Assembly (NCBI GenBank): GCA_027214385.1
Contig: JAPVXR010000013.1
Span: 1-64,000 of the forward strand
Direction of reading: 5' to 3'
Source: Cryomorphaceae bacterium 1068
GTDB lineage: Bacteria; Bacteroidota; Bacteroidia; Flavobacteriales_D; Cryomorphaceae
Length of the DNA: 64,000 nt
A program made the position numbers and the translations under genes. Below, piece after piece: positions 14,213 to 30,640 of the stretch. Numbering within the stretch: position 1 is the stretch's first letter; each line of letters opens with the position of its first letter. The notes under the pieces were generated by a model that did not search any database, had not been told where the DNA came from, and worked only from the letters and a program-made list of their open reading frames with translations.

Positions 14213-14236
14213 ACTCTATTCTTCGTTTCTATTAAT

Positions 14237-14505
14237 GACGCACAACAAGTAGATAACCGCAACTCAGTTGCACTTTACCCTAGTATTTGGGGAATAACCG
14301 CAACTCAGTTGCACTTATTCAGCTTATGGGCTTATTGACTTTCAACAACACCCTTAGTATTCTACCCCCAAAACATCCTTAGAAAAACCTCACTCCTTCT
14401 ATTCGGTTTTGGCTATTCCAAAAATAAGAAAAACCGCTTCAGTTCGAAGCGGTTGTGGATAAGACTTGAAAAGTCGGGGAGGGGTAGCCTTAGAAGAGAG
14501 GGTAT
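14237..14505 (-). repeat. Dispersed repeat, copy a, with cassette boundary
   Basis: From the box GACGCACAAC (14237-14246) rightwards it has two tandem hairpins (GCAACTCAGTTGC, spacing about 40 bp), TTATTCAGCTTATGGGC, GACTTTCAACA, then CAAAACATCC and AAAACCTCACTCCTTCTA, a terminator stem, and GACTTGAAAAGTCGG. The order and spacing match copies at 16987-17225 and 30436-30640. It links the 3' end of the SRPBCC gene to the 5' end of the two-gene unit. Confidence 0.75.
14432..14453 (-). terminator. Rho-independent terminator
   Basis: A perfect stem AACCGCTTC / GAAGCGGTT with a 4-base loop is followed on the minus strand by TTTCTTATTTTT. It lies 60 bp past the stop of the SRPBCC gene and belongs to the dispersed repeat. 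Confidence 0.8.
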
Positions 14506-14512
14506 CGAAGGG

Positions 14513-14986
14513 CTATGCCAACAGTTCCTTCCGTTTTCCTGATTCAGCCACTTCTTTCACCACGCTGTTTCGTTGGGTGAGCAAGTTGGTCATGTACTTT
14601 TCGAGTATGAGTTGATCGACCAGCTTTCCTAAGATACCGAATGGGGACTCATAGTCGAAGATGTCCGTCATAAGCGTTCCTCCATCCGTTGCGCTGAACC
14701 GGTGCTCGTGTTTGAACCGTTTAAAGGCTCCGCTGATCATCTCGTCTACGAAATATGTCGGGCGATCATAAGCCGTGATCTTTGACGTGAGGTGTTGGTA
14801 AATACCGAAGTGCTTCGCTCTCCAGGTAACGGTCTCGTTAAGGCCAATCAGCCCGCTGGTTTTTCCCGCCACTGCCGTCTCATTGGTTTGTTGGGTCGAG
14901 AGCTTGTGCAGGTCTATGCTTCTGGAAAGGTCAAACACTGTTTCTATGTCAGCCTTTATTTCTGTTTGAAGTTCAATCCTTGGCAT
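14513..14986 (-). CDS. SRPBCC family (START-like) protein
   Basis: 157 residues. The first strand IELQTEIKADIETVFDLSRS is the usual opening of SRPBCC ligand-pocket proteins, followed by LGLNETVTWRAKHFG-like strands and a C-terminal helix (LGKLVDQLILEKYMTNLL). These proteins bind hydrophobic ligands or act as cell-division-inhibitor-like oligoketide cyclases; no substrate can be named. A degenerate attC-like site lies just upstream (15012-15075), and its 3' end runs into dispersed repeat copy a. Confidence 0.8.
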   Translation of the reverse strand: MPRIELQTEIKADIETVFDLSRSIDLHKLSTQQTNETAVAGKTSGLIGLNETVTWRAKHFGIYQHLTSKITAYDRPTYFVDEMISGAFKRFKHEHRFSATDGGTLMTDIFDYESPFGILGKLVDQLILEKYMTNLLTQRNSVVKEVAESGKRKELLA

Positions 14987-15011
14987 CGTCGACCTACAGT
15001 GTGGTGGAGTT

Positions 15012-15075
15012 GAATGTTAACGGTGAAAGATAAGAGTAGTAGCGGCGAAGGAGCTATTACTTTTATCTAATGTGA
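15012..15075 (-). repeat. Degenerate attC-like site 5
   Basis: The arms GATAAGAGTAGTAGCG and GCTATTACTTTTATC pair and match the inner stem of site 1. The left box GAATGTTAAC (15012-15021) keeps AAC, but the right box reads AATGTGATG where a GTT is expected. It may be inactive or mutated. Confidence 0.5.
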
Positions 15076-15086
15076 TGTGCTGGCTC

Positions 15087-15593
15087 TTATTCTTCAGGGT
15101 TGGTATCTATTATTACGGCATTCATTAATTCGCTTTCTGTTGCTTTATGAAATTCCCCTTCCATAAAATCAAACATTCCTGGTGTTACTTCGAATGAGAA
15201 AGTTTCACCTCTATTCACGTTTCTATCTAAAACTCGTTTTCGTCTAATTGGATGTTTTGCAGACACATAGTGTAATTGAATCTCTTTACCGTTTTCTTCG
15301 GCTAATTGCTGGAATAATTTTCTTTTCTCTCGCTTAGTAAATCCAAGATCAAGTATCACATCACATCCTCGATTAGATATATCTTCTGATAATTCCCATA
15401 TTAGTTTTTCGCATCTTTCAACTCTTTCCATAATCCATTTTAGATTCATTGATTTAGGAAGATCATCTCCATACAATTTCCACATCCAATTATCTATTCC
15501 CAAATGAATTCCTTTAACTTCATCTGCTAATTTCTTTGAATATGTCGATTTTCCTGCCCCTTGAGGTCCAAAAACAATATGTATTCTACTCAT
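15087..15593 (-). CDS. P-loop NTPase/kinase (AAA_33-like)
   Basis: 168 residues. A Walker A motif GPQGAGKST lies at residues 9-17 and a Walker B-like DVILDLG about residue 79, followed by an arginine-rich lid region (RKRVLDRNVNRGE). The size and order resemble zeta-toxin-like or polynucleotide/nucleoside-kinase-like single-domain kinases found in accessory DNA. The substrate is unknown. The gene sits in a cassette-like unit that starts GTTAGGTAC (minus strand at 15634). Confidence 0.8.
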   Translation of the reverse strand: MSRIHIVFGPQGAGKSTYSKKLADEVKGIHLGIDNWMWKLYGDDLPKSMNLKWIMERVERCEKLIWELSEDISNRGCDVILDLGFTKREKRKLFQQLAEENGKEIQLHYVSAKHPIRRKRVLDRNVNRGETFSFEVTPGMFDFMEGEFHKATESELMNAVIIDTNPEE

Positions 15594-15626
15594 TCAGTTT
15601 TTTATATTATGTTTTTTTCTTGCTTG

Positions 15627-15696
15627 TACCTAACGGTTTGGCTATGAGCAGTAGCGTCCCGCAGGGCGCTATTGCTTATAGGTTGTGTTGGGCACA
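15627..15696 (-). repeat. attC-like recombination site 6, matches integron consensus
   Basis: The outer 7-mers are ACCTAAC (15628-15634) and GTTGGGC (15687-15693), which fit RYYYAAC and GTTRRRY exactly. Inner arms GCTATGAGCAGTAGCG and CGCTATTGCTTATAG pair imperfectly around CCCGCAGGG. The right box GTTGGGCACA is the exact complement of TGTGCCCAAC at 16977-16986. This is the clearest attC-like site of the window. Confidence 0.85.
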
Positions 15697-16967
15697 GTTT
15701 TTATTTTTTCTAGATATTTTTTGGCAACAGTCAGTCTACTTCGGTCAATTGTCGTTTTAAAAACTCTTTCAATATCCTTAATTTGCTTATCTATTGTCGG
15801 AGAGCTTTCGAGTAATGACCATAGATCTACTACTCCTTTGAACTTATTTAAAATCCGCTTCTCTTTAATTTTATCCCAAGCTAGAAACCCTGCTTTGCCT
15901 GCTACTTTTCCAAGATTTAAGTCTTTAAGAACTTCTTCAACAGATTGGTTGTCAATCAAATTGTCGATTGAATTTTCATAATTTGAATCCTTCGCCACAT
16001 CTAAGAATCTAAACATCAGACGTGTTGACTCATCATTGTATTTCTTTACTAAAGCAGCCCAAAATTTCTTGTACTGCTTTACAGCTTCTACCTGTTCTTT
16101 TATTGTACTAGCTTCATTGAGTGACTTTTCAAACTTTTCACAGCAAAGTCTGAATTCAGTAAAGTCTTCTCTCAATTCGCAGAGTACATCAGGAATTTGC
16201 TCAATCGTCTTTGTTTTGGAAAGTACAATGCTAACCAATGGTGGAATCGCTTGAAGTTCAGTACCAAAATGATTTTCTGCATCTTGAATCTTTTGGCCTT
16301 GAAGTTCACTTAGCTTAGTGTATATCTCTTTTGAAATTGCCTTTTTGCCAAGTTCTTTTAACTGTTCTTGGTATGTAAATACAGGTAAAGCAGCTTGGAC
16401 ATTATGATTTGTTATAGTATTGAAAAACGATTTTACAATCTCGAAAGGTTGATTTGTTGTTTCACCAATGAGTACTTGGCTCTTACTTCCAAATTCGGGT
16501 TGATCCTTTCCTGCAAAACCCAAAGAATATGTTTTCACGCTACTTATTGGCTTGGTAAAATCCGAAAGAATAAAGTTGTTTCTAATTCTTTTTGAATCTC
16601 TTTGGCGAAAGGCTTCTACAGCTTTTCGAGCAGTTTCTTCATCGTTTTTTTCAACCTTGTCAACATATACACACTGGGTAATATTATTACCAAACCCGCT
16701 GACAACTGATATATTTTTCGATTTAGAAAGCATGTCAAAGATTGGTCTACCGTGAGGAAAAAGTACCTCTCGAGTAATATTAATATGCTCTAGTTCTCTT
16801 CGAGTTACAATGAAATGACTAGATAATAGGTATGATTCAACGAAAGCGTTGAAATTGAAGATAAATTCAACGGTTGGCTTACCATATCCACCAATAAAGT
16901 AATCAAGTTCATCCAATAGATTTGAAGAAATTATGCAGCTGTTATGTTCAATTGTAAGCTCTTTCAT
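15669..16967 (-). CDS. Cassette-borne protein of unknown function, 432 residues
   Basis: No signal peptide or membrane helix. Residues 1-130 are mixed alpha/beta (FIVTRRELEHINITREVLFP), the rest mostly helical (residues 200-430), with several lysine-rich helices (KEQVEAVKQYKKFWAALVKK). I recognise no family. Its length is large for one cassette. It fills the unit between GTTGGGCACA boxes at 15687-15696 and 16977-16986 (complement), and its stop at 15669 lies inside the attC-like stem, so the C-terminal residues are site-encoded. Confidence 0.65.
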   Translation of the reverse strand: MKELTIEHNSCIISSNLLDELDYFIGGYGKPTVEFIFNFNAFVESYLLSSHFIVTRRELEHINITREVLFPHGRPIFDMLSKSKNISVVSGFGNNITQCVYVDKVEKNDEETARKAVEAFRQRDSKRIRNNFILSDFTKPISSVKTYSLGFAGKDQPEFGSKSQVLIGETTNQPFEIVKSFFNTITNHNVQAALPVFTYQEQLKELGKKAISKEIYTKLSELQGQKIQDAENHFGTELQAIPPLVSIVLSKTKTIEQIPDVLCELREDFTEFRLCCEKFEKSLNEASTIKEQVEAVKQYKKFWAALVKKYNDESTRLMFRFLDVAKDSNYENSIDNLIDNQSVEEVLKDLNLGKVAGKAGFLAWDKIKEKRILNKFKGVVDLWSLLESSPTIDKQIKDIERVFKTTIDRSRLTVAKKYLEKIKTVPNTTYKQ

Positions 16968-16976
16968 TTTTCAAAT

Positions 16977-17225
16977 TGTGCCCAACAATAGGATAAGTGC
17001 AACCAGTTGCACTTTACCTCTATATTTCGCAGATAAGCGCAACTCTGTTGCACTTATTCAGCTTATGGTCTTATTGACTTTCAACAAGCACCATCGTTTT
17101 ATCACTCCCAAAACATCCCCAGAAAAATCTCACTCTTCCTCAATCAGCTTTGGTCGGCACCACAAGATAAGAAATACCCACTACAGGAAAATCAGGTGTT
17201 GATAAGATTGGAAAAGTCGGTGGGA
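16977..17225 (-). repeat. Dispersed repeat, copy b, with cassette boundary
   Basis: Begins with the box TGTGCCCAAC (16977-16986), then two tandem GCAAC/GTTGC hairpins, TTATTCAGCTTATGG, GACTTTCAACA, CAAAACATCC, AAAAATCTCACTC and GATTGGAAAAGTCGG. The terminator stem of the other copies is degraded here (TACCCACTACAGG). It joins the pseudogene at 17245 to the 5' end of the 432-residue cassette gene. Confidence 0.75.
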
Positions 17226-17244
17226 TGGGGTGCCGCTAAGGTCA

Positions 17245-17545
17245 CTACTGCCCGTCGTTTTGGGGCATGTACTTCACTTCTTTCAAATAGGCCTCCCATT
17301 CCTCTTTGGTAAAGCCGTGCTTGCCCGGGCTTATGCCTCGGCCAAAATCAGATGCGCCGCGATCGGTCAAGGTGATGGAGAAGTCATCGGTGATTTCCAA
17401 AAGGAGTTCCAGCCCAAAAGAGGTGAGCAAGTGCACGGTCTGGCCATTGTCGGCCATCGATGCCGTTGATAAAGTGATTGTCTTTGAATCGATCCTTGGC
17501 GTCTTTTAGGGTCGCCTTTTTTACGCCACGAATGGTGAGCTGAGC
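17245..17545 (-). pseudogene. Frameshifted, truncated paralogue of the 43947-44417 gene
   Basis: The C-terminal part (17245-17457) encodes LLTSFGLELLLEITDDF and GKHGFTKEEW, closely matching LTTCFGLELIIEVEEDF and GNHGFTKEEW in the intact 156-residue protein at 43947-44417. Upstream, in another frame, the DNA encodes DRFKDNHFINGID, matching NRFKDNHFINEIL of the same protein. A frameshift near 17460-17470 separates the two. The first half of the gene is missing; similarity stops near the palindrome GCCTGCCTAGCGGCAGGC at about 17549. Confidence 0.75.
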
Positions 17546-17917
17546 GCGCCTGCCTAGCGGCAGGCTCCGTTGTGACTTGGTGTCAACCCTGCGGCACTTG
17601 CTATGAAAATGCGCTTTTAAGTATATGTTGGTTTCAGGTTATTGATACTTAGGGATCGCCGCAGGGTTGCTACTGAGCGCAGCGTTCTCACGCAGCGAAG
17701 CAAGTAAACCCAGTGGAACGGTATTTTAAAAAACTGAAAAGTGAAGTTGTTCCTTATCGCGAAAGAATAAACCCCAGAAGCTCCTCTTCAGAACGTTAAA
17801 GCTAGAAATCTTCGGGAGCAGGACCGTATAAAAATTTGTGGTAATTGATTTAATGCAACAGTTCTGTCGAATCTTTGCTCCTCCTCTGGCTTCAGTCTGT
17901 GTTGAAAACAGCGTTCC
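17546..17917. other. Non-coding region with inverted repeats
   Basis: About 370 bp. It holds the palindrome GCCTGCCTAGCGGCAGGC, an 11-bp inverted repeat AACCCTGCGGC (17585-17595) / GCCGCAGGGTT (17658-17668), and the phrases CGCAGGGTTGC and AAACCCAGTGGA that recur as CGCAGGGTTGC and AAACCCAGCGGA at 16-40. No gene is seen. Confidence 0.5.
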
Positions 17918-18940
17918 CTATTGCTGAAAATCTTCTGTTAACAAATCTGATTTCATGTTACTCATCAGCGGAGTATCAAGAATGTGGATTTGATTTTGAA
18001 TAGGTGCCTTAGAACCCTCCATGCGCATAATGAGACGTTCTACCGATAGCTCTCCTGCACGGCAACCATCATGGTGCAAAAAGAAAATTGGTTCCGTAAA
18101 GAAAAAGGGCAACTTCCCGTCTGATATTCCCATAATGCGACAATCATCGGGAATGGCCATTCCATATGATTTCAATGCAGGGACAATTCCCGAAATCACT
18201 TCATCGCTCATGGCAAAAATTCCATCTATACCCTGCGCAGCATAATCGAGGGCACTTTTGTAAGCATCATTCACCTGATGAACGTGGGAAGTACCGACAT
18301 CAACGAGTCCAAAATCCTCTACCGCATTCAAATACCCGCGTTCTCTTTCAATCGTTATGCTCATGGCAGGGTGACCAAAAATGCCCGCTATTTTGCCACA
18401 CCCTGCTTCCTTTAAGGATGACACGGCGCTGTAAGCAGCCTTCTCGTCGTCAATTTTTATGATATCAAATGTGGCATTGCTAGGAGCTTTATCAAAAAAT
18501 ACGACCGGAATCCCATGGTCAATGGCTCGCTCAATATGGGTGAGTTCTTCCGTCTCACAGCTCAACGAAATAACTATTCCACTTACCCTGTTATCAATAC
18601 AGATTTGAAGATTCTCCAACTCTCGCTCCAGTTGTTCATTGGATTGCAAAACCATTACATGGTAACCTGCTTTGGCAGCAGCATCTGTCACTCCATTTAT
18701 TACCGAGGGGAAAAAGAACATGTTTACCTCAGGAATGATGAGTGCAATTGTAGGGTTGGAAGAGCTTCTCAGATTGGAGGCCATCTTATTTGGTCTGTAA
18801 TCGAGGGCCTTTGCAATATCCTTGATAGTCTTTTTCACCTCGTCACTGATGTCGGGATGATCTCGAAGCGCTCGCGAAACAGTAGATGGATTGACTCCTG
18901 CCATCTTTGAGATATCCTTAATGGTTACTTTTTGACTCAT
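17918..18940 (-). CDS. LacI family transcriptional regulator
   Basis: About 340 residues from the ATG at 18940. An N-terminal LacI helix-turn-helix (VTIKDISKMAGVNPSTVSRALRD, split over residues 5-27) with hinge (RPNKMASNLRS) is followed by a periplasmic-binding-protein-like sugar domain. It is divergent from the TonB receptor at 19197, with a LacI-type operator between them. By context it should repress the downstream sugar locus and respond to the sugar or a derivative. The longer frame to 19018 adds 26 residues without family resemblance. Confidence 0.92.
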   Translation of the reverse strand: MSQKVTIKDISKMAGVNPSTVSRALRDHPDISDEVKKTIKDIAKALDYRPNKMASNLRSSSNPTIALIIPEVNMFFFPSVINGVTDAAAKAGYHVMVLQSNEQLERELENLQICIDNRVSGIVISLSCETEELTHIERAIDHGIPVVFFDKAPSNATFDIIKIDDEKAAYSAVSSLKEAGCGKIAGIFGHPAMSITIERERGYLNAVEDFGLVDVGTSHVHQVNDAYKSALDYAAQGIDGIFAMSDEVISGIVPALKSYGMAIPDDCRIMGISDGKLPFFFTEPIFFLHHDGCRAGELSVERLIMRMEGSKAPIQNQIHILDTPLMSNMKSDLLTEDFQQ

Positions 18941-19094
18941 GCTTTTCGTTTGCTTACCCTGACAATAGTGTAGAATTTCATCATTCCCAACTTGACTGAA
19001 GTGTATGCGGTACAGCAAATGTTCCTAATAATCACTCGCGACTGCTTCTAAAGATATGAACAATAGAACGAAATATTGGCATACTTATCAACCG

Positions 19095-19119
19095 CAATCG
19101 TTTGCACAACCGATTGCAG
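19095..19119 (+). promoter_or_regulatory. Candidate LacI-family operator
   Basis: GCAATCGTTTGC (19095-19106) is a near-perfect 12-bp palindrome around CG, the usual form of LacI/GalR operators. A second half-site CGATTGC follows at about 19113-19119. The pair lies between the divergent regulator and TonB receptor genes, 80-100 bp upstream of the receptor start. Confidence 0.65.
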
Positions 19120-19196
19120 AAATTTCAAGCGCTTGGCTTCTAGCGTATTCATATGGGTAATCACATAGATTTGTGTCAAACAAACACCAAACAAGA

Positions 19197-21824
19197 ATGA
19201 AGAAAAATGTACAATTAACCCAAGTACTTCTTGCCTTTCTATTTATTGTTTTGAGCGATGTTGCGTTGGCACAAGGCAATATTACCGGAACAGTCAGCAG
19301 TGAGGATGGACCACTGCCGTTTTCGACAATACAAATTAAGGAGACCGGTGGCGGTGCAGTTAGCGATCTGGACGGTAACTTTGAGATTAAGGACTTGCCT
19401 GCCGGCGATTACACTCTCGTTACGAATCAAATTGGTTACAAAAGTGATGAACAAACGGTTAGTGTAGTATCGGGTCAGACCGTAACGCTAGCAATAGTTT
19501 TGGGAAAAGACGCCCTAAGCCTTAACGAATTGGTTATAACGGGAGTTTCAAATCCAGTTTCCAAATTGGAAAGCTCAGTATCGATGACTACTCTTCGACC
19601 TGCAGCAATGATTGACCAGAATGCAGCCAATACTGCAGAGTTACTTCGCACCATTCCCGGTATTCGATCTGAAGCTTCAGCAGGAGAAGGTAATACCAAC
19701 ATTACGGTAAGAGGAGTTCCTATTTCATCGGGAGGTTCTAAATACCTTCAACTACAGGAAGATGGTATGCCGATTCTTCAATTCGGTGATATCTCTTTCG
19801 GAACGGCTGATATCTTTTTGCGTGCTGACCAAACAATACAGCGAGTCGAAGCTATTCGAGGTGGATCAGCATCGACCATGGCGAGCAACTCCCCTGCGGG
19901 TATCGTAAACTTCATTAGCAAAACGGGTGCAATAGCAGGTGGATCCTTGATAACCAGCGTAGGATTGGATTACGATAATTTCCGTACTGATTTTGAATAC
20001 GGTGCTCCTATAGACGATAAGACGAGCTTTCACATCGGTGGTTTCATGCGTCAAGGCGAAGGAGTGCGCGAAGCAGGCTACAAAGCAAATCAAGGTGGGC
20101 AAATTAAAGCGAACCTTACCCGTCGCTTCAAGAGCGGTTATGCACGTGTATACTACAAGCACTTGAACGATCGCACTCCGGCTTATCTCCCAATGCCTAT
20201 TCAAGTGAGCGGTACCAATGCCGATCCGACTTGGGAAAATATACCGGGCTTTGATGCCAGAAGCGGTACCATTCACACGCCATTCTTAACGTCAAACTTG
20301 ACTACTGGACCTGCGGGTGACTTGAGACGAAGCAACGTTATGGATGGAATGAACCCCGTGTCAAATGTGGCCGGAGCTGAATTCGTTTCAGACTTAGGTG
20401 AGGGATGGAGTATTGAGAACCGCACGCGAATGGCTTTTAACTCTGGCCGTTTTGTTTCCCCTTTTCCTTCAGAAGTAGGCGATGCAACGGCGATAGCTGA
20501 ATCCATTGGAGGTGCAGGAGCACAACTTCAATATGCCGATGGAAGTGAGTTTGGAAATGGAAATGCGGACAACAACCTTTTGATGAGACTTCATGTTTTT
20601 GACACCGAGCTAAATGACTTCAACCTTTTTGCCAATGACCTTAAAATCAAAAAGAGCATAGATAATTTAGATCTTACTTTCGGGTATTACAGATCGGTGC
20701 AAAATATATCCATGTCCTGGTTATGGAACTCCTATCTATTCGACGTCAACGGAGAAGATGCACGTCCGGTCAACGTAACAGGACAAGACGGGACAGAATT
20801 TAGCACAAATGGACTATATGCTTACGGAACACCTTTTTGGGGAAATCTACACCGCAATTATGATACCCAGCACAATACCAGTGCACCGTATGCAGCAGTT
20901 TCTTACAAATTGAATGAGAATCTTTACATCGATGGATCAGTGCGCTATGACATGGGTTCTGTAAGCGGTTCATTTGCAGGTGGAACTTCTCGTCCCTTTG
21001 ATATGAATAATGACAGCACCATATCGGCTTATGAAGAGGATGTTTATTTTATTGACAATGAAGCACGGACTCCGGTTGACTATGATTACGAATACCTCTC
21101 ATTCTCCTTGGGAGCGAACTATAAAATCGATGAGACGCAAGCCGTATTCGGACGTTTCAGTCGAGGTGGTTCTGCAAAAGCAGATAGAATACTTTTCCAA
21201 AATCTACCCTACAGCGGTGGTGTAGAAATCAATGCACTCGATATGATCGATCAAGGTGAAATTGGTTGGAAGAAAAACTTTAAAAATGCAGCATTATTTG
21301 TGACTGCCTTTTACGCACAGACTACTGAAGAAGGAGGATTTGAGTTAACTACTCAAAATATTATCGATAACAATTACCAAGCATACGGACTCGAAGTGGA
21401 AGGTGCAATCAACTATAACAAATTTGAGATACGGGGTGGACTTACTTACACCGAAGCAACTATTGAGTCAGGCGACAATGATGGAAACACTCCAAGACGT
21501 CAGCCTACATTGATGTACTTTGCAACTCCTACTTATCGGTTTACAGAAAAGCTCAATATCGGTGCTACCATTATTGGCCAAACAGGAGCCTACACTCAGG
21601 ACAACAATGAGCTCTGGATGCCTGGCTATGCCTTTGTGAATGGATTCATTCGTTACCAATTGAACAAGAACTTATCGGTATCTGTACAGGGCAATAATAT
21701 CTTTGACACACTTGGTCTTACGGAAGCTGAAGAAGGTGCTATAGGAGAGAACCAAGTAAACTTTGTTCGCGCCAGAAGCATAGTCGGACGCAACCTTAGT
21801 GCATCTGTAATGCTCAGATTTTAA
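19197..21824 (+). CDS. TonB-dependent receptor, probable sugar uptake
   Basis: 875 residues from the ATG at 19197. A signal peptide ends in VALAQ. A carboxypeptidase-regulatory-like domain (GNITGTVSSEDGPLPF ... GYKSDEQTVSV, about residues 27-100) precedes the plug (IPGIRSEASAGEGNTNITVRG) and a 22-strand barrel ending in the aromatic LRF. No SusD partner is present, so it is not a SusCD pair but the simpler single-receptor type. With a LacI regulator, glycosidase and MFS symporter it should import an oligosaccharide or disaccharide across the outer membrane. I used the ATG that directly precedes the signal peptide. Confidence 0.9.
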   Translation: MKKNVQLTQVLLAFLFIVLSDVALAQGNITGTVSSEDGPLPFSTIQIKETGGGAVSDLDGNFEIKDLPAGDYTLVTNQIGYKSDEQTVSVVSGQTVTLAIVLGKDALSLNELVITGVSNPVSKLESSVSMTTLRPAAMIDQNAANTAELLRTIPGIRSEASAGEGNTNITVRGVPISSGGSKYLQLQEDGMPILQFGDISFGTADIFLRADQTIQRVEAIRGGSASTMASNSPAGIVNFISKTGAIAGGSLITSVGLDYDNFRTDFEYGAPIDDKTSFHIGGFMRQGEGVREAGYKANQGGQIKANLTRRFKSGYARVYYKHLNDRTPAYLPMPIQVSGTNADPTWENIPGFDARSGTIHTPFLTSNLTTGPAGDLRRSNVMDGMNPVSNVAGAEFVSDLGEGWSIENRTRMAFNSGRFVSPFPSEVGDATAIAESIGGAGAQLQYADGSEFGNGNADNNLLMRLHVFDTELNDFNLFANDLKIKKSIDNLDLTFGYYRSVQNISMSWLWNSYLFDVNGEDARPVNVTGQDGTEFSTNGLYAYGTPFWGNLHRNYDTQHNTSAPYAAVSYKLNENLYIDGSVRYDMGSVSGSFAGGTSRPFDMNNDSTISAYEEDVYFIDNEARTPVDYDYEYLSFSLGANYKIDETQAVFGRFSRGGSAKADRILFQNLPYSGGVEINALDMIDQGEIGWKKNFKNAALFVTAFYAQTTEEGGFELTTQNIIDNNYQAYGLEVEGAINYNKFEIRGGLTYTEATIESGDNDGNTPRRQPTLMYFATPTYRFTEKLNIGATIIGQTGAYTQDNNELWMPGYAFVNGFIRYQLNKNLSVSVQGNNIFDTLGLTEAEEGAIGENQVNFVRARSIVGRNLSASVMLRF

Positions 21825-21850
21825 ATTGGATTTTTGATTTTAGTTAGGTA

Positions 21851-23126: not shown

Positions 23127-23758
23127 TAGGCGATGTTATTAATATCAAACCTGAGTACGTAAACACTGCGCGAGAAATCGTTTCACTCTGCGGGAATCTT
23201 TTCTTTGACAAAAAACGCGTGATCTTGATTGCGGGTGAGTCTGGAAGTGGGAAATCCGTGACAGCTGTTTCGCTTCAAAAAGTGTTGCTCGAACACCACG
23301 TAGACGCGATGGTCATTCATCAAGACGATTATTTTCATTTGCCCCCTGCTACCAATCACGACGAAAGGCTAAAAGATATAAGCCGCGTAGGTATGGATGA
23401 AGTCAACCTCAATTTGATGCAAAAGCACATTGATGGCTTCAAAGCCAATGCCGAGCGAATCACTAAACCTTTGGTGCATTACAAGGAGAACGAAATACTC
23501 CAAGAAAGTATCAATATTGCCGCTTATAAAACACTGATTGTCGAAGGAACTTACAGTTTTGCGCTTAGCGGAGCGGATACCCGCATTTTCATGGTGCGTA
23601 ATTATAAAGACACGCTTACAAGTAGGTTGGAAAGAAACCGCGATGTAGCAGGAGACTTCATCGAGAGAGTGCTCGAGATTGAACACGGTCTCATCTCACC
23701 GATGGCAGCTCATGCCGACATTGTGATTCGCAAAAACTATAAAGCCGAACGATTATGA
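23123..23758 (+). CDS. Uridine-kinase-like P-loop kinase
   Basis: 211 residues. A Walker A motif AGESGSGKS lies near residue 38, followed by QDDYFHLPP (the acidic acceptor-site motif of the uridine kinase/phosphoribulokinase family) and VEGTYSF. The fold belongs to the uridine kinase and pantothenate kinase group. The gene overlaps both neighbours by 4 bp (ATGA), so it is co-translated with the glycosidase and the MFS symporter. A nucleoside kinase in a sugar operon is odd; phosphorylation of the hexose released by the glycosidase is a possible alternative role, by inference. Confidence 0.8.
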   Translation: MIGDVINIKPEYVNTAREIVSLCGNLFFDKKRVILIAGESGSGKSVTAVSLQKVLLEHHVDAMVIHQDDYFHLPPATNHDERLKDISRVGMDEVNLNLMQKHIDGFKANAERITKPLVHYKENEILQESINIAAYKTLIVEGTYSFALSGADTRIFMVRNYKDTLTSRLERNRDVAGDFIERVLEIEHGLISPMAAHADIVIRKNYKAERL

Positions 23759-25068
23759 CTACACAAGCTGAAAAACCGCGCCTTTCGATTTGGCAAATCT
23801 GGAACATGAGCCTTGGCTTTCTGGGCGTGCAGTATGCCTTCGGCCTGCAGCAGGCCAACATGAGCCCCATTTATCGCTATTTGGGCGCCGACGAGAGTGA
23901 AATTCCGTTTCTTTGGTTGGCCGGACCCATCACAGGGTTGCTTGTCCAGCCTTTTATTGGTGCCATGAGCGATAAAACCTGGCATAAATTCTTGGGCCGT
24001 CGGAGACCCTACATTTTATTTGGTGCCATAGCTACCAGCCTTGCCCTCATCTTAATGCCAAACTCCACCCAGCTTTGGCAAGCGGCCGCTTTGCTCTGGT
24101 TGCTCGATGGTGCGGCTAATGTAACCATGGAGCCCTTTAGAGCTTTGATAGCGGATAAACTCAATAGCAAGCAGCGCTCTTTGGGCTTTGCCGTCCAGAG
24201 TTTGTTTGTTGGCTTTGGGCAAATTCTGGCTAACCTCATGCCTTTTATTTTGGGTGCGTTGGGGCTGCTTTATACGGTGGGAGAAGAAGTAGAACAGATT
24301 CCACTTTTCGTGAAACTATCGTTTTACGTAGGCGCTGCAACTATTCTGGTCACCGTTCTAGTCACTGTATTTACCACAAAAGAAATTCCTCCATCCACCC
24401 AAGAGGAAGAAGAACTTAAAGCTTCTGATGGAAAAGGCACACTGGCAGAAATCTTTGCCGCATTCAAAGAAATGCCCAAAACCATGAAACAATTGTGGTG
24501 GGTAAAATTCTTCACATGGTACTCATTGCCATTGATGTGGCAATACTATTCACTCTCTATGGCTAGACATGGTTTTGGAGCTTCGGATCCAGGAGTAGAA
24601 GCATTTGAAGAAGGAATTAAATTTGGAAACCTTGGATTTAGTGTATTTAGCGGCGCTTGCTTGGTTTTTTCTATGTTCATCCCCGCCTTGTCAAGAAAGA
24701 TAGGTAACAGGGCCACACATGCCATTTGCCTCAGCATCGGTGCATTGGGCTTTATGGCTATGCAATTCACAAATTCACCAAAGGCCCTTGTCGGACTGAT
24801 GGGTCTGGTAGGTATTGCCTGGGCTTCAATCATGGCTATGCCTTACGTGATGCTTGCAGGAGCCGTTCCTGCCAAAAGAATGGGAGTTTACATGGGTATT
24901 TTTAATATGTTCATTGTGGTACCGCAAATCTTGAGCATGCTGACTGTACCTCTGTTTTATGATAACTTCTTGACGGGCGATCCGAGAAACGCGCTTTTCC
25001 TTGCAGGTGTGCTGCTACTTTTTGCAGCGGCATCAAATAAGTTCGTTTCAAAGAAAGCAGAAAATTAG
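23755..25068 (+). CDS. MFS sugar transporter, GPH/SUT-like
   Basis: 437 residues, 12 predicted membrane helices. It contains GRRRPYILFGA between helices 2 and 3, a hallmark shared by plant sucrose transporters and bacterial SUT-like glycoside-pentoside-hexuronide symporters. QQANMSPIYRYLGA and WLAGPITGLLVQPFIGAMSD are also typical of the group. It should carry a disaccharide with protons across the inner membrane and hand it to the cytoplasmic glycosidase. Start overlaps the kinase stop (ATGA at 23755-23758). Confidence 0.85.
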   Translation: MTTQAEKPRLSIWQIWNMSLGFLGVQYAFGLQQANMSPIYRYLGADESEIPFLWLAGPITGLLVQPFIGAMSDKTWHKFLGRRRPYILFGAIATSLALILMPNSTQLWQAAALLWLLDGAANVTMEPFRALIADKLNSKQRSLGFAVQSLFVGFGQILANLMPFILGALGLLYTVGEEVEQIPLFVKLSFYVGAATILVTVLVTVFTTKEIPPSTQEEEELKASDGKGTLAEIFAAFKEMPKTMKQLWWVKFFTWYSLPLMWQYYSLSMARHGFGASDPGVEAFEEGIKFGNLGFSVFSGACLVFSMFIPALSRKIGNRATHAICLSIGALGFMAMQFTNSPKALVGLMGLVGIAWASIMAMPYVMLAGAVPAKRMGVYMGIFNMFIVVPQILSMLTVPLFYDNFLTGDPRNALFLAGVLLLFAAASNKFVSKKAEN

Positions 25069-25355
25069 TGCGTTGATGAACTGCATAATTGTTTAAGTAG
25101 GTCTGAAAGGGGCCTAGTACTTTCACTGCAAAGACCATTACCAAAATAGGGCTTATTCAAAATAGCGCGCGGTAAGAGCAGAAAGGAATGAAAATTCACA
25201 AGAGATCAGGAAAGGCACACCACATCTCCAGTTTTCGATGAAAATTATTTCGATACAAAATACCAAGGCATGGGCAGTGTCCCGCAAGGCATTGGTTATA
25301 AGTTTCCGAAGTTCGTTTTTTCTCTATGCGATGACCTGTAGAATTTGAGTAAAGC
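25069..25355. other. Intergenic region with a weak attC-like remnant
   Basis: About 290 bp between convergent genes. Around 25265-25305 the sequence GGCATGGGCAGTGTCCCGC ... GGCATTGGTTATA resembles the inner stem of the site at 15627-15696, but neither the AAC nor the GTT box is recognisable. Otherwise nothing is seen. Confidence 0.35.
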
Positions 25356-26327
25356 CTAAAGATGTGTCAAACAGAATTTATTTCCAGTTGGATCAATCAG
25401 CCAATATTCTCCATCTTTTTCAGTAATATCAGGAGCATTCATAATGGCCATGTCCAGACGTTCCTTGCTATCGAAAATGATGTGAAAATGCCTCATGCCA
25501 GCATTTTCAATCGGTGCTAAGGGTCTATTCTGGCCATGCCAAGAGTTCATGGCTATTCGATGTTTGTAAGAACCGCCAGCTCCTACATCGGCATACATGA
25601 ACTGGGGTAGGAAGTTGAAAGATTCAAATCCAATTTTTTGATAGAAGGAATTAGACTCTTCGACATTGTTTGCATAGAGATGAATATGACCTAGATAGGT
25701 GTCTTTATCAATGATGTTATTAGGTATCGAATTATCAGCGTGCGAGAGAACTTCATTCAAGTCCAATTGAGCCGAAGCACTGCGAATATTCCCGTCCATA
25801 TCTTCTATGCTAAGTCCGTGCTCCGTTACTACGCGTTTAAAACGCTCGGGAGTTTCCAGTGTGAACTCGACATTGATGCCATCTGGGTCATCTAAATAGA
25901 GCGATTTCGACATGGTGTGATCAACGGGAGAACTTGGATATTTTTTGTCAAATACGCGTTTCACCATATTGGCAAACTCACGTGTGTTAGGTGCGTGAAT
26001 TGCGAAATGGTAAAGTCCACTGTAGCCTTTTTTAAACTGGGCTGTAGCCGTTTCGTGAACTACGATGAGGGTCTTTGATTCTGTGCCAAGCTCTGCAGAT
26101 TTTTCAGAACGAGCTCTTATCTTCATTCCGACCAGTTCGGTGTAAAAACCTATGCTTTTGTCTAACTTAGTTATGTTGAGATGTATGGCCCCGAATGTGG
26201 CATACCTGCCTGTTTTGTCTAACTGTGTATTCATGCTTGAAAGAGAATAAGCAATGGATGAAAAACCATCCATTGCTATCAATGATGCGCTACCCAATAT
26301 TGCCTTCATAAAGTCATTGCGCTGCAT
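25356..26327 (-). CDS. Two-domain VOC protein, catechol-2,3-dioxygenase-like
   Basis: 323 residues. Two vicinal-oxygen-chelate modules lie at about residues 43-175 (GAIHLNITKLDKSIGFY, GLYHFAIHAP, DPDGINVEF) and 205-322 (GHIHLYANNVEESNSFY, RHFHIIF, DPTGNKFCL). Each preserves the histidine, histidine, and glutamate or similar metal positions, as in CatE-type dioxygenases. The N-terminus has a hydrophobic segment. It is the last gene of the Crp-led operon. Substrate unknown. Confidence 0.85.
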   Translation of the reverse strand: MQRNDFMKAILGSASLIAMDGFSSIAYSLSSMNTQLDKTGRYATFGAIHLNITKLDKSIGFYTELVGMKIRARSEKSAELGTESKTLIVVHETATAQFKKGYSGLYHFAIHAPNTREFANMVKRVFDKKYPSSPVDHTMSKSLYLDDPDGINVEFTLETPERFKRVVTEHGLSIEDMDGNIRSASAQLDLNEVLSHADNSIPNNIIDKDTYLGHIHLYANNVEESNSFYQKIGFESFNFLPQFMYADVGAGGSYKHRIAMNSWHGQNRPLAPIENAGMRHFHIIFDSKERLDMAIMNAPDITEKDGEYWLIDPTGNKFCLTHL

Positions 26328-26356
26328 ATTATATAACGTTTGTAATTGCTTTAATT

Positions 26357-26764
26357 TTATTTAGCAGTAATTGGTGCTTTCTTAGATCTTCCCCAGGCGA
26401 TAAAGCCTAAGAATAAGATGAACAGGGCATTGGCCCCTATGGCTGGAAACTCACCTCTTGAAGCATGGAATATGGCTGCAAAAACCATAACTGCAGTCAG
26501 CCCCACAGATGCCCAAACGCTCAACGCTGGTTTGATGCGCAGTAATGAAGGAAGTACCAATCCGATTCCTCCTAAAAACTCACTGATACCAATGAAGCGC
26601 ACTAATCCTTCTGGAACGTCTAATACCCATGGCATCGATTCGGCCATTGCTTCTATCGGTTGAAATAGTTTAGTCAGACCTGCCATGATAAATAAAGCTG
26701 CAAAAAGTCCTTGAAACACCCAAAGAATGATGTGCATTGTCTTGTTCTTTTGAGTAGTTGTCAT
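26357..26764 (-). CDS. DoxX family membrane protein
   Basis: 135 residues with four membrane helices. The opening WVFQGLFAALFIMAGLTKL and the FIGISEFLGGIGLVLP segment are typical of DoxX/DUF4345-like quinone-interacting or oxidative-stress-linked proteins. It sits 3 bp from the next gene upstream and 30 bp from the VOC gene, in a five-gene operon led by a Crp-type regulator. Confidence 0.85.
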   Translation of the reverse strand: MTTTQKNKTMHIILWVFQGLFAALFIMAGLTKLFQPIEAMAESMPWVLDVPEGLVRFIGISEFLGGIGLVLPSLLRIKPALSVWASVGLTAVMVFAAIFHASRGEFPAIGANALFILFLGFIAWGRSKKAPITAK

Positions 26765-26767
26765 TTC

Positions 26768-27169
26768 TTAAATTGATTTAGTGATTTGAAAAAAAGGTTG
26801 AAAAGTGAAAAAGGCTAGAGCCGGAAAGAAGTGCATGGGTACTACAAGTCCTGGAAAGAGTTCAGGGAAATCTAGATCTAAAGGAAGTGAAGCATCCATT
26901 GCGCCTATGATGCTTGCGAATGAAAGAGTAGCGTAAATAATATTTAACCAACCCATAAATCGGTTAAGTTTAAATTTTAGAAACCCCCAATAGCCCAAGG
27001 TCATCAGCAAACAACCCATTGTGCTCGCACCTATTATTGAACCCCAGTTTACTACTGAGTTGAATTCAGTTAACATGAGATATTGATAAATCTCAAAGTA
27101 TACAACGCCAGCTATACTCGCAAATGCACTGGAAATGATTCCGTGCCACAAAAGGTGTTTTCTATTCAT
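26768..27169 (-). CDS. Hypothetical four-helix membrane protein
   Basis: 133 residues with four hydrophobic segments (about residues 10-30, 42-64, 70-90 and 108-128). I recognise no family by motif. It is packed between the DoxX and YceI genes (3 and 6 bp gaps), so it is co-transcribed and probably acts in the same redox-related membrane process. Confidence 0.7.
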   Translation of the reverse strand: MNRKHLLWHGIISSAFASIAGVVYFEIYQYLMLTEFNSVVNWGSIIGASTMGCLLMTLGYWGFLKFKLNRFMGWLNIIYATLSFASIIGAMDASLPLDLDFPELFPGLVVPMHFFPALAFFTFQPFFQITKSI

Positions 27170-27175
27170 GGCAAC

Positions 27176-27706
27176 TTATTTGGTGACAGGGATAGTCACA
27201 TCGAGCTTAATTTCATTGGATACCTTCTTAGACATTCCCTTCATGGTTCCAACACCAAAGTCCAGTCGGTTGACAGAAAATTTGGATGAAAACGAATTCT
27301 CATTGAATGCAAAAGGTATTGTCATTTCTTTTGACACCCCATGTATACTCATAATGCCAGTCACTTTGTATGCATCTCCTTCTTTTGAAACTGAGCTAGA
27401 CTTGAAGGTTATGTTTGGGTACTTATCTGCATCAAACCACTTGTCACTAATGGCATGTTTGTTCTTCATGCCCTTTCCCGTATTAATTGAATTAACGGCT
27501 ACAGTAAACGAAAAGGATGAGTTTTCAGGGTTTGCATTATCAAATTTCACATCACCTTCAAGGTCTTTGAAAATCCCTTCTGCGTCAGTTCCTGAGAATT
27601 TGACCGAATAACCTTCACTAATTTTCCAATCAACAGATGTTTTGATGGTAAATGCTGATAAGACTATGATTGCCATTGAAGCCAGTAAAAATTTTGTTGT
27701 TTTCAT
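27176..27706 (-). CDS. YceI family lipocalin-like periplasmic protein
   Basis: 176 residues with a signal peptide (LASMAIIVLSAFTIKTS). The mature part is the YceI beta-barrel: VKFSGTDAEGIFKDLEGDVKF, the helix region MKNKHAISDKWFDADKYPNITF, and the VTGIMSIHGVSKEM strand. YceI proteins bind isoprenoid-type ligands. It follows the Crp regulator and precedes DoxX, a common Bacteroidota arrangement. Confidence 0.9.
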   Translation of the reverse strand: MKTTKFLLASMAIIVLSAFTIKTSVDWKISEGYSVKFSGTDAEGIFKDLEGDVKFDNANPENSSFSFTVAVNSINTGKGMKNKHAISDKWFDADKYPNITFKSSSVSKEGDAYKVTGIMSIHGVSKEMTIPFAFNENSFSSKFSVNRLDFGVGTMKGMSKKVSNEIKLDVTIPVTK

Positions 27707-27794
27707 TTCTTATTGTTTTAGAATTATTTAGGTCACAAATTTCAGGCGATCCCAATAATTAAAACTTAAGCTACCTTAAGAAATGAAAGCAGAG

Positions 27795-28313
27795 CTATTT
27801 TCCTGCGAGTTTACGCCTGATCTCACTCAAATATTCGGGGGTAATGCCAATGTAAGAGGCAATCAGTTTCAATGGCAAACGCTGTACAAGCATTGGGTAC
27901 GTTTGGGTGAACTCAATATACCGTTGCTCAGCTGTGGCACTTAGCAGGGCGATGAGCCGCTTATTACTGGCTATTAAACTGTTACGCAGTTTATGATTCA
28001 TTTCAAGAATAAAGCGATCATTCAATTTTTCTAAATCAGAATAAGCATCATGAGAAAAAACTTGAAGGTTAGAGTCCTCGATGGCTTCAATAAATATTTT
28101 GGAGGGTTCTTGATTAAAAAAACTGGCCATGTCTGAAATGAGCCAATTTTCGGGGGCAAATTGAATGATGTGTTCTTTTCCTGAGTTATCGAGCACATAG
28201 CTTTTTAGACAACCGCTTTCCACTTTAAAAGCCATTTTGCTTATGTTTCCTGCGCCATGCAAAACTTCACCGCGCTTTACTTTAATTGAGTTGACTTCTT
28301 CTTCAAAATCCAT
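27795..28313 (-). CDS. Crp/Fnr family transcriptional regulator
   Basis: 172 residues, cyclic-nucleotide-binding-like domain (KRGEVLHGAGNISKMAFKV, SGCLKSYVLDNSGKEHIIQF) and a short C-terminal HTH (IASYIGITPEYLSEIRRK). It shares layout and phrases with the regulator at 6774-7349. It heads the YceI-membrane-DoxX-VOC operon and likely controls it. Its upstream region has been invaded by the IS at 28386-29691. Confidence 0.9.
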   Translation of the reverse strand: MDFEEEVNSIKVKRGEVLHGAGNISKMAFKVESGCLKSYVLDNSGKEHIIQFAPENWLISDMASFFNQEPSKIFIEAIEDSNLQVFSHDAYSDLEKLNDRFILEMNHKLRNSLIASNKRLIALLSATAEQRYIEFTQTYPMLVQRLPLKLIASYIGITPEYLSEIRRKLAGK

Positions 28314-28385
28314 AGAAGTAAAATAAAGATTTTTTTATTGCTTATATCTTATTGAGCTTCCTCGTATTTGGTTTCTTTTAATGTT

Positions 28386-29691
28386 CGTAAAGGCACATGC
28401 TTTACACAAGTTAAAGATTAGGGTTTACACTAAATTAGTCTCTAACCTTGTTGATGATTCTTTACTTCTAAGATGTCTTTCATCAAAGAAACCTAAAAAT
28501 ACGTCTCGGTAATACGCTTTCCAAATTCCGTTACCGCTGTCTTCCAAACCGACATATTTTCCCTTCAAAGCTGCTGTTAAATAGACCCAGTAATAGGTCT
28601 TCCATCTGATGGCTCCGTTGCGGGTAACTTTCAATATTTTGTATGTGGAGTCGTAGTCAAAATCGGGTATCCTTTCGGGGAATGGCCTGGTGGAAAAATC
28701 ATGCATGTGAGCGGGTGTTTTCATGTCCAGTGCTTCATGGGGTCGAATGTGATTATACTCTTTCACAAAGTGATTTAATCTCCTCTGTTGAGCTTTCAAA
28801 TCGTAGGCAGAAGGTTTGGCGCAAGCAGCCTTTAAATCGCGGTGCATCCGTTCATGTCTACCGTTTTGTTCGGGGTGCGCAGGATCGGAAAATACAGGCT
28901 TAATTCCGAGCTCGATGAACCAATATGAGAGCTGCGTAAAGCGTTGAATGGCACGCACGGATCCAAAGGGGCTTCCGTTGTCGGTGTGCATCTGTTGCGG
29001 GATGCCGTATTTCCTAAAAACCCTTTTAAACTCTGCCTTTGCTGACTTTATATTTTCGTGATAATGACCTTTTGCGGTAAACAAAAAAACGGCTTTTAGA
29101 GTCTGCAATGGTGAGTGGATGGCAGTAGATTTTGTTACCCATTAAGAACTTTCCTTTGTAGTCAGCACTCCAAACTTCATTGCACTTTTTTGGATCGAAT
29201 ATGGGAAAGATCGGCTTGACTCTTCGCATTCTTTTTTGCGGGCACACCAGGCTATTTTTCTTGAGGATATTATGTACCGTGACCACCGATGGGATTTGTT
29301 CCTCAGTAAACTCGTTAAACAACAAAATGCGGATTTTCTTCGCTCCCCAGAGCTTGTGTTTTCCTTTGAGCTTAAGGATACTTTCTACAATATTTTCAGG
29401 TGTAGAATTAGGATGATTTTGAGGAGATCGCGACTGCTCTTTGAGACCTTCAAATCCCAATTTTTCGAACCGATCAATGAGTCGATAAGCGGTTGGCCTG
29501 GAGATCTCAAAGCTCCGACATAGTTCTGTGATCGTATACTTTCCCGTACGCCATTCACAGATAAATTCAATCTTTTGTTCCATTGTTGTACTTACTTTCC
29601 AAGGCATGGTAATCTGATTTTGACCTCAAATTACCCCCTAAAAAAGTGTAAACCATGTGCCTTTAACTCTGTAAACTATGTCCCTTTAACG
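28386..29691 (-). mobile_element. IS481-family insertion sequence
   Basis: About 1.3 kb. The ends are inverted repeats of about 45 bp, each made of two copies of a roughly 23-bp motif (left CGTAAAGGCACATGCTTTAC, then GTTAAAGATTAGGGTTTAC; right outer GTTAAAGGGACATAGTTTAC on the minus strand). One transposase is encoded in two overlapping frames. It lies 9 bp from the cassette box at 29700-29709, inside the unit that starts GTTGGGGTGC. A target duplication could not be defined. Confidence 0.85.
28425..29607 (-). pseudogene. IS481 transposase split by a frameshift
   Basis: The N-terminal frame (29607 to about 29085) encodes the helix-turn-helix (ITELCRSFEISRPTAYRLID) and the first catalytic aspartate (EVWSADYKGKF). 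The C-terminal frame (to 28425) encodes HTDNGSPF with the second aspartate and PEQNGRHERMHRDL with the catalytic glutamate, then the C-terminal wing. All DDE residues are present. The frames join at T7 (plus-strand A7 near 29082-29089) by a -1 shift, giving R-F-F-L-F-T-A-K, which continues the family sequence. Either a one-base indel or programmed -1 frameshifting on a slippery U-run explains this. Confidence 0.75.
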
Positions 29692-29699
29692 TACCCAAT

Positions 29700-29835
29700 G
29701 CACCCCAACGCTCTGGCTAAGAAACGTGCGGTTTTAAAAACCGAAAATCTTTCACCTAAGACGTGATTAAAATTAAAGGTAATCATCTTCATTTTAACGA
29801 GATTCCGCATGTGTTCTTAGGTGATGTTGTGCAGC
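29700..29835 (-). repeat. attC-like recombination site 7
   Basis: Runs from GCACCCCAAC (29700-29709) to GTTGTGCAGC (29826-29835), 136 bp. Inner arms GGCTAAGAAACGTGCGG and CCGCATGTGTTCTTAGG pair imperfectly; the long apical part carries its own AT-rich stem. The right box exactly matches the complement of GCTGCACAAC at 30426-30435 over 10 bp, delimiting a unit with the toxin-antitoxin pair. Confidence 0.8.
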
Positions 29836-29839
29836 GTTT

Positions 29840-30151
29840 TTATTTATTTTTCAGGATGTTAAGTAGTTTTTTAGGGTCTTGACGGTTGTCCCAAAATGCT
29901 GTCACGATTATTCTGTCATCGAATACTTTGTAGTAGATACTGAAATGTCCGAGTGATGCGACACGCGTATCCTTGAAGTCCGCTGATTTATACAGAAATG
30001 GGTTCTTGGCTATTTGCTTCGTTCGGTCGGATACCAAACTCATCAGCCTTTTGGAGTATGAATTAGATTTATTCTTTTCGACCCAGAATTGAAGAATTCC
30101 GACAAATTGAATGTCCGCAGTTCTCGTCCAAACTACTGCCCGTTTAGCCAT
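29840..30151 (-). CDS. RelE/ParE family toxin
   Basis: 103 residues with the RelE/ParE core: AVVWTRTADIQFVGILQFW, helix with SYSKRLMSLV, IAKNPFLYKSADFKDTRVASLGHFSIYYKVFDDRIIV and the C-terminal FWDNRQDP. Whether it is an mRNA interferase (RelE-like) or a gyrase inhibitor (ParE-like) cannot be told. It overlaps the antitoxin gene by 19 bp and lies in one cassette-like unit with it. Confidence 0.88.
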   Translation of the reverse strand: MAKRAVVWTRTADIQFVGILQFWVEKNKSNSYSKRLMSLVSDRTKQIAKNPFLYKSADFKDTRVASLGHFSIYYKVFDDRIIVTAFWDNRQDPKKLLNILKNK

Positions 30152-30375
30152 TCAAGATTCCGTTTATTCATCGCTTCCTGTGAAATGAGGCGACCACTTT
30201 CTATGTCGTCGTCGCTCATTTCGAGCATTTCTTTCTGTTCGGCAGTGAGTTCCACAAGGTCAGACGTTGAACTACTTGATGCGACGAGCTTATCCAGCGC
30301 TTCTAAAAAATCTTTGTTCTTAATTGCCAATATCTTATCGATTAACTGACTTCTTATTTTGTCAACTGCTGCCAT
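30133..30375 (-). CDS. Antitoxin of the RelE/ParE pair
   Basis: 80 residues, upstream of and overlapping the toxin gene. It is acidic and helical (LTAEQKEMLEMSDDDIESGRL) and has the short C-terminal segment typical of antitoxins that wrap the toxin. The N-terminus (VDKIRSQLIDKILAIKNKDFLEAL) could form a dimerisation or DNA-binding part. The start ATG lies 51 bp from the cassette box at 30426-30435. Confidence 0.85.
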   Translation of the reverse strand: MAAVDKIRSQLIDKILAIKNKDFLEALDKLVASSSSTSDLVELTAEQKEMLEMSDDDIESGRLISQEAMNKRNLEWLNGQ

Positions 30376-30425
30376 GACTTTCTTATTTCCCCTAAATATC
30401 CACTTTTATCACGAGTTCTTCAAAT

Positions 30426-30640
30426 GCTGCACAACAATCGTATAATACGCACTAGTGTGTGTTATTCAGCTTATGGGCTAATCGACTTTCAACATCGCCC
30501 TTACTAATCCCTCTCCCAAAACATCCCTAGAAAAATCTCACTCCTTCTAATCGGCTCTGGTCATTCCTCAATCTAAAGAAAAAACCGCTTCAAACAGAAG
30601 CAGTTTTGCATAAAACGTGAAAAGTCAGATAGCGAATTGC
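30426..30640 (-). repeat. Dispersed repeat, copy c, with cassette boundary
   Basis: Starts with box GCTGCACAAC (30426-30435), a palindrome centred on CACTAGTG, TTATTCAGCTTATGGGC, GACTTTCAACA, CAAAACATCC, AGAAAAATCTCACTCCTTCT, a terminator stem and CGTGAAAAGTCAG. It matches copies at 14247 and 16987 in order and spacing, but has one hairpin instead of two at the left. It follows the AI-2E permease gene. Confidence 0.75.
30581..30608 (-). terminator. Rho-independent terminator
   Basis: AAAACCGCTTC pairs with GAAGCAGTTTT; on the minus strand the stem is followed by TTTTTTC. It lies about 55 bp past the AI-2E permease stop and ends the operon 30661-35629. Confidence 0.75.

Follow-up and report, generated by a model that had tools for sequence, protein, structure and literature searches.

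Probable Attachment Sites at the Heads of Cassette Arrays

The stretch of 64,000 nucleotides (nt) of contig JAPVXR010000013.1 from Cryomorphaceae bacterium 1068 (hereafter, the window) contains a dispersed non-coding repeat bordering integron gene cassettes, and the conserved core of this repeat, as judged from its junctions and from its counterpart behind a recombinase gene, is very probably an attI-type cassette insertion site. In the explanation that we favor, about 15 attI-type sites are scattered over the genome, and a single tyrosine recombinase, encoded beside one of them, would serve them in trans. Circular cassettes with a folded attC of the ordinary kind would recombine at the GTT of the site, so that the DNA of a cassette would start right after this GTT and end in its own attC. 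The sequence blocks upstream of the cores would be DNA that flanked a site and was copied together with it, one of their types being the 3' flank of the recombinase gene. The parts of the arrays and cassettes are read on the minus strand of the window, which is the direction of the cassette genes, and the cores, upstream blocks, cassettes and attCs of the window lie on it. The genome of the window is labeled G000 and its contigs C1, C5, C16 etc., while other genomes are labeled G and fetched loci L.

The sequence-only reading of this DNA had recognized a real repeat, as the matches within the genome, with E down to 8e-40, are far beyond chance: the query 14237–14505 matches 16980–17220 (77%, E 8e-40), 30462–30626 (79%, E 8e-34) and C13:128662 (E 2e-18). 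The order of motifs described in that reading is also right for the copies 14237–14505, 16977–17225 and 30426–30640, and on the minus strand it runs as terminator, AGAAGGAGTGAG, GATGTTTTGGG, TGTTGAAAGTC, CCATAAGCTGAATAA, hairpin(s), (A)TTGTT and cassette. Constancy at the cassette edges is limited to the part from CCATAAGCTGAATAA to GTT. The repeat is thus a composite. Its conserved core of 43–92 bp at the cassette junction consists of CCATAAGCTGAATAA, one or two hairpins and (A)TTGTT, with the integron gene cassette following at GTT, and is preceded by an upstream block, of which there are at least three unrelated kinds. Because the core is combined with this many different blocks, the entire unit of about 250 bp, which had been put forward as the landing site, was rejected in this role, and only its last 43–92 bp qualifies.

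A genome search with the 15-mer CCATAAGCTGAATAA returned 12 sites with 0–1 mismatches and two with 2 mismatches that keep the hairpin and GTT, which makes 14 cores by pattern; a 15th, immediately following a tyrosine recombinase gene, was added from another contig, C16. Four of the cores head arrays in the window. The core of array 1 (8326–8369) has the form CCATAAGCTGAATAA-hairpin-ATTGTT with the crossover at GTT 8328–8326 and was found by pattern and by the models R1 and R3 (9-nt R'' complement). Those of array 2 (14244–14329; pattern; 8-nt R'' match) and array 3 (16984–17068; pattern and covariance model; 10-nt R'' match) have two hairpins, and that of array 4 (30433–30476; pattern and covariance model; 10-nt R'' match) has one. 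To judge by their sequences, the cores with two hairpins may be tandem sites in which GTT has been kept by the second site alone. At C5:120506–120573 and C19:70249–70316 the tip of the attI hairpin carries an insertion, AAGCGGAGCGTTCTCACCGAAGGTA, resembling repetitive extragenic palindromic (REP) sequences, and similar sequence is found elsewhere in the genome.

Sequence comparison placed type-1 upstream blocks, i.e., the repeat as it was originally described, at 14330–14505 (terminator, AGAAGGAGTGAG, GATGTTTTGGG, TGTTGAAAGTC), 17069–17225 and 30477–30640. Type 2 is represented by 8370–8480 in the window and by copies on C5, C19 and C7, and type 3 by copies on C9, C21 and C12. The type-2 block of the window is homologous to the 3' flank of the C16 recombinase gene and stands in the same register as in C16, C5 and C19. 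The box TATACTTG precedes the core by 65 nt in C16, C5, the window (8355) and C19 and by 62 nt in C7, and, judging from this spacing, it may be a candidate cassette promoter (Pc). The segment 8320–8372, taken earlier for a truncated copy of the repeat, is instead an attI core (box, hairpin, TTATTCAGCTTATGG) on the different upstream block common to C5, C19 and C7. At 40596–40745, where a partial copy had been proposed, the terminator part of the type-1 block is present indeed (40642–40729; 75%, E 3e-7), without a hairpin core and without a cassette. The same terminator block lacks the attI core also at C13:128662, C9:6634, C6:80773 and C3:223071, the last of these copies adjoining a full attC; therefore, it is a dispersed element in its own right. 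All four core-bearing copies do have the 3' end of an unrelated gene on one side and the 5' end of a cassette on the other, as described, which the block-only copy at 40596–40745 does not. Copies beside cassette-free genes, named in advance as evidence that would speak against an attI, were only such block-only ones, and these are compatible with the attI interpretation.

Junctions and attC Sites

In integrons, the bases that follow the GTT of the cassette start are complementary to the R'' box of the cassette's own attC. All 14 cores found by pattern run on into a cassette with the boundary exactly at GTT. A downstream complement of GTT plus 5–7 bases (8–10 nt in total) was present at 11 of the 14 cores and one of 7 nt at two, with none at the remaining core, while control GTTs gave 8-nt matches in 6% and 9-nt matches in 2.4% of cases (8.9% and 3.1% over a longer range). 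These R'' matches begin sequences of attC form, and the genome contains GTT-bounded cassettes with complementary R' and R'' boxes, which is a feature of integrons. Three attCs of the window, folded with R' set to the cassette's own circular form, displayed the attC architecture: the R box comprises 7 bp, the spacer is unpaired, and the L stem has bulged bases (z from -2.6 to -4.0). Arrays were traced by walking along the complementary junction boxes. The attC model (R2) was built without base pairs and therefore scores sequence only; 22 of its 29 matches in the window genome lie in core-headed arrays, or 11 of 18 when the 11 attCs used for model building are excluded. The first cassettes differ from one another over their first 500 nt, and the start of the array-4 cassette is found again as the second cassette of the array at C21:30127.

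Recombinase Gene with a Linked Site

The 15th site (C16:83194–83233), detected with a covariance model of the core, is located about 70 nt past the stop codon of a gene encoding a tyrosine recombinase of 374 amino acids (aa; C16:81999–83123), on the same strand, and leads into a cassette with a 10-nt attC match. The first covariance model, R1, had only 66.7% of stem cells paired, still found this site, and was superseded by R3. Since only five tyrosine recombinases are encoded in the genome, two of which length and score mark as XerC/XerD-like, the C16 protein is the likely integrase and is probably the enzyme acting on the cores.

Among 399 genomes of the order, about 35 possess an ortholog of the recombinase with roughly 50–60% identity over most of its length, the named ones belonging chiefly to Flavobacteriaceae. 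In the 30 ortholog loci fetched (L077–L106), a palindrome and GTT follow the stop codon at about 5–60 nt in nearly all cases with downstream sequence, L085 and L087 being equivocal and L090 having no downstream sequence. A site next to the recombinase gene, as attI stands next to an integrase, is therefore seen on C16 and in nearly all of about 30 orthologs with at least 50% identity. Together with the cassettes that start exactly at GTT and with the complementary R'' at their attCs, this upholds the equation of the copies with attI or a landing site made from the sequence alone. Remoter relatives of the recombinase (in Mediterranea, Parabacteroides, Pontibacter, Aquiflexum and others) likewise have their gene followed by a hairpin or GTT, several of them with R'' matches, which suggests a spread throughout the phylum; this result is provisional, as more than one GTT was tried at each locus. 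In L159 (Mediterranea sp. An20), L165 (Parabacteroides distasonis) and L180 (a metagenome-assembled genome of Spirochaetota), genes of distant relatives are followed by a hairpin and GTT, with R'' matches of 12 nt in L159 and 10 nt in L180 and none seen within the 220 nt available for L165.

Dispersed Sites and Probable Cassette Movement in Other Genomes

The site model has matches in most of the genomes picked for having the ortholog or cores, and several in most of the ortholog-bearing ones (13 in G277, 9 in G193, 8 in G148 and 7 in G009), some of these counts including the same palindrome read, more weakly, on the reverse strand. Genomes picked without a close ortholog mostly gave zero matches, with a marginal one in G180 and a strong one in G170; the latter (G170:C9:114561), whose contig ends 725 nt downstream, found no explanation. 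No matches of the site model were obtained in G001 or in G013 and G203, and as the last two carry an ortholog, the model misses some sites. At the dispersed sites of eight genomes, R'' matches of 9–10 nt were present in 10 of 20 cases versus 31 of 994 controls.

The complete genome G009 provides what is, as far as sequences can tell, the strongest footprint of cassette movement between the recombinase-linked platform and dispersed sites. A 460-bp cassette occurs there in five copies (L246–L250). Three of them follow dispersed hairpin sites, among which two stem sequences are represented, and the other two follow attCs within the array that the recombinase-linked site heads. All five have GTT at both ends and unrelated flanks and are identical at 458–460 of 460 positions (99.6–100%), which points to recent movement; outside of them, the genome contains only one weak match of 85 bp. 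This cassette (one copy at C1 1724823–1725282) apparently has no long gene, and no Rfam family was matched on it or in the window. From footprints of this kind we infer recombination.

Palindrome of the Site

In order, the site comprises CATA or a similar short box, four bases, a palindrome of 24–32 bp that can fold into a hairpin, a few bases and (T)GTT. Over 21 sites, both recombinase-adjacent and dispersed, 94.4% of the cells of the 12-bp stem are paired versus 67% in shuffled sequences, and double-changed stem cells number 69 versus 20 in the shuffles (0 of 500). This covariation means that the palindrome is maintained and would be expected of a hairpin and of a duplex palindrome alike. 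We regard it as an evenly balanced matter whether the site acts as a folded strand. A duplex palindrome binding a recombinase dimer, in the manner of Xer dif-like sites, has a somewhat smaller but considerable chance and would be compatible with the role of the cores as attI: the center is palindromic in roughly half of the aligned sites by our own count, which a hairpin loop does not need, the recombinase is Xer-like, and canonical attI is recombined as a duplex (PMC4792948). Opposed to the duplex are the stem sequences, varying widely among sites of one enzyme in one genome (G000, G009), and the insertions tolerated at the tip, as at the tips of attCs.

Family and Structure of the Recombinase

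The recombinase scored 226 bits with the XerA-like family NF040815 (cut-off 220) and 184.5 bits with the integron integrase family TIGR02249 (cut-off 265), with positions 180–239 unmatched in the latter case. The I2 region counts, on the alignment, 29 residues versus 71 in IntI1, and residues 180–242 of IntI4 are likewise unmatched, i.e., the IntI-specific additional domain with the I2 helix is missing. In the phylogenetic tree, which includes one certain IntI only and has weak deep forks, the site-bearing recombinases formed one clade (99/92) apart from IntI1 and did not group with it. The predicted structure has a mean predicted local distance difference test score (pLDDT) of 78 and a predicted template modeling score (pTM) of 0.46 with uncertain domain packing; a fold search with it returned XerA first and IntI4 next. 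The protein begins with a conserved extension of about 100 residues (1–100; L001:1177–1476), which is confidently predicted as mixed alpha/beta and for which no relatives were found in Pfam or PDB. The extension is a possible stand-in for I2. Judging from the sequences, the system works as an integron, yet its recombinase is outside the IntI family as defined.

Origin of the Dispersed Copies

The best-supported and most likely source of at least some copies, in view of the sequences compared, would be duplication of the recombinase-attI locus followed by loss of the recombinase, because the type-2 block aligns in exact register with the 3' flank of the C16 recombinase gene (74% over 50 nt, E 2e-4) and because in G002 the final 115 codons of a recombinase gene, 73% identical to that of C16, stand in front of one site, the remainder of the gene being gone. 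No recombinase remnants were detected by tblastn upstream of the dispersed sites in the window genome (1.6 kb, with three sites covered by 160–170 nt only), and retention of such remnants in this genome was dismissed, the remnant in G002 notwithstanding.

Weighing of Alternative Explanations

The explanation proposed above proceeds from the cores, the GTT junctions, the R' and R'' boxes, the attC folds, the linkage of site and recombinase, the dispersal in multiple genomes and the occurrence of the same cassette behind different sites, all directly observed; catalysis by the linked recombinase, action of the site as a folded structure and the route by which the sites were copied are what we infer from them. 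Several points weigh against it. The evidence consists of sequence footprints, and the window genome is a draft of 59 contigs; seven of the 29 attC-model matches have no core in view, three of these at a contig start; and for half of the dispersed sites elsewhere, no clear R'' match was seen within about 3.5 kb. Furthermore, because the I2 insert, the attC reader of IntI, is absent, the recombinase may be unable to process these attCs. One alternative is that the cassettes were placed by a canonical I2-bearing IntI, since lost or residing on an unsampled element, the Xer-like recombinase being a passenger. The lack of the IntI-specific insert in the linked protein would agree with this, and so would the canonical shape of the attCs with their bulged bases, a known substrate of I2 (PMC4792948). 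However, the linkage of recombinase, hairpin, GTT and cassette is retained in about 30 genomes, and the cassette copies in G009, being nearly identical, speak of recent movement. A match to TIGR02249 at E <= 1e-50 was absent from the 399 genomes of the order, which is weak as proof of absence, since the controls gave none either. We consider the lost integrase unlikely.

Two further alternatives concern the sites themselves, and both appear very improbable. Cassettes could have repeatedly used ordinary secondary targets (attG), given that the sites lie away from the recombinase gene and that insertion into attG is known for IntI according to Loot et al. (2024), as cited in PMC12444791. Yet an attG is a target, other than attI or attC, without conserved structure, whereas all the sites here share a conserved hairpin core of the same kind as the recombinase-adjacent site, and in E. 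coli the insertions into attG are reported to be spread widely across many loci (PMC12444791). The repeat could also be a miniature inverted-repeat transposable element (MITE), a REP sequence or a terminator element bordering cassettes by chance. The type-1 block does occur alone (C13:128662, C9:6634, C6:80773 and window 40642), and two cores have a REP-like insertion in the loop, but no terminal inverted repeats, by which a MITE would be recognized, were found on the 250-bp unit in the three copies inspected. This inspection revealed only the terminator and the attI hairpin(s). Moreover, the core keeps a constant position against the cassettes while being joined to at least three unrelated upstream blocks, and the block-only copies lack it.

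Cassette Arrays of the Window

The first cassette of array 1 (7368–8325, by the junction-box walk) carries a gene of 291 aa and ends in an attC at 7364–7430 with a 7-bp R box, an unpaired spacer and an L stem with bulged bases (walk and folding); the next attC found in this array (5131–5260, 130 nt) has a 10-nt junction match and 22 end-to-end pairs. In array 2, the first cassette (13291–14243, by the walk) has a gene of 163 aa at its 5' end, the first attC lies at 13287–13353 (walk, folding and attC model), and the second at 11650–11716 (10-nt junction match and attC model). Array 3 starts with a cassette at 15632–16983 (walk) with a gene of 432 aa, its attC, GCCCAAC...GTTAGGT, being located at 15628–15693 (walk, folding and attC model). 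The first cassette of array 4 (29707–30432, by the walk and open reading frames) contains a gene pair (80 and 103 aa), judged by eye to be toxin-antitoxin-like, and its attC of 130 nt occupies 29703–29832 (walk). Genes of insertion-sequence-like transposases are situated directly 3' of this attC (28425–29607). Being attC clusters with no integrase nearby and with the recombinase on another contig, the window arrays fit the definition of clusters of attC sites lacking integron-integrase (CALIN). The window also contains five diverged direct repeats with a period of about 550 bp (61299–63628) and a diverged tandem repeat in a 21-bp register (10528–10757).

Relation to Known Systems and Significance

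The canonical integron (IntI, attI and attC) shares with the system described here the attC fold, the crossover at GTT, the insertion site beside the recombinase gene and the one-directional run of cassettes away from this gene. It differs in that the recombinase here lacks the I2 insert, falls outside the IntI1 branch and is encoded in the orientation of the cassettes, and in that attI is a hairpin with a variable stem and many dispersed copies. As in CALIN, the four window arrays have no adjacent integrase; unlike CALIN, each begins with a conserved attI-like site, and a recombinase likely acting in trans is encoded elsewhere in the genome. Insertion away from the platform is common to these sites and to attG as described by Loot et al. 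(2024), cited in PMC12444791, from which they are set apart by a conserved structured core of the same kind as at the recombinase-adjacent site. Archaeal XerA (NF040815) and Xer proteins are the nearest family by score and by fold search, but the recombinase here has about 100 extra N-terminal residues and is linked to cassettes. Archaeal integrons likewise have attI immediately downstream of the integrase gene, while their integrases carry the IntI-specific domain (PMC9668308), in contrast to the recombinase here.

Integron surveys identify integrases by the IntI-specific domain (PMC9024848, PMC9668308, PMC2426708), and with an integrase devoid of it, the platform described here would be counted as CALIN or missed. 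In a large survey, Bacteroidetes proper yielded only In0 elements and one complete integron, that of Salinibacter ruber (PMC9024848). No description of such a system was found in the literature searched, which did not extend to preprints and most subscription papers. The new aspects are the likely integrase without I2, the hairpin attI with a variable stem and the dispersed attI sites apparently served in trans. That they represent a Bacteroidota-wide class, in which an I2-less recombinase would put canonical folded attCs into fold-recognized, multiplied and scattered attI sites, so that one enzyme serves many arrays, seems to us to have about an equal chance of being right or wrong.

The phylum concerned includes gut and marine bacteria, and attI outside class 1, so far poorly described (PMC9024848), gains a searchable form. 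How the I2 domain and attC evolved, and how either could precede the other, is an open question (PMC4792948, PMC7790495); Xer proteins have no I2 domain, which recognizes single-stranded substrates, and intermediates are reported to be lacking (PMC7790495, PMC4792948). The platform bears on both this question and the lack of intermediates: if the explanation is true, I2 would be dispensable for cassette capture, or another domain, perhaps the N-terminal extension, would substitute for it.

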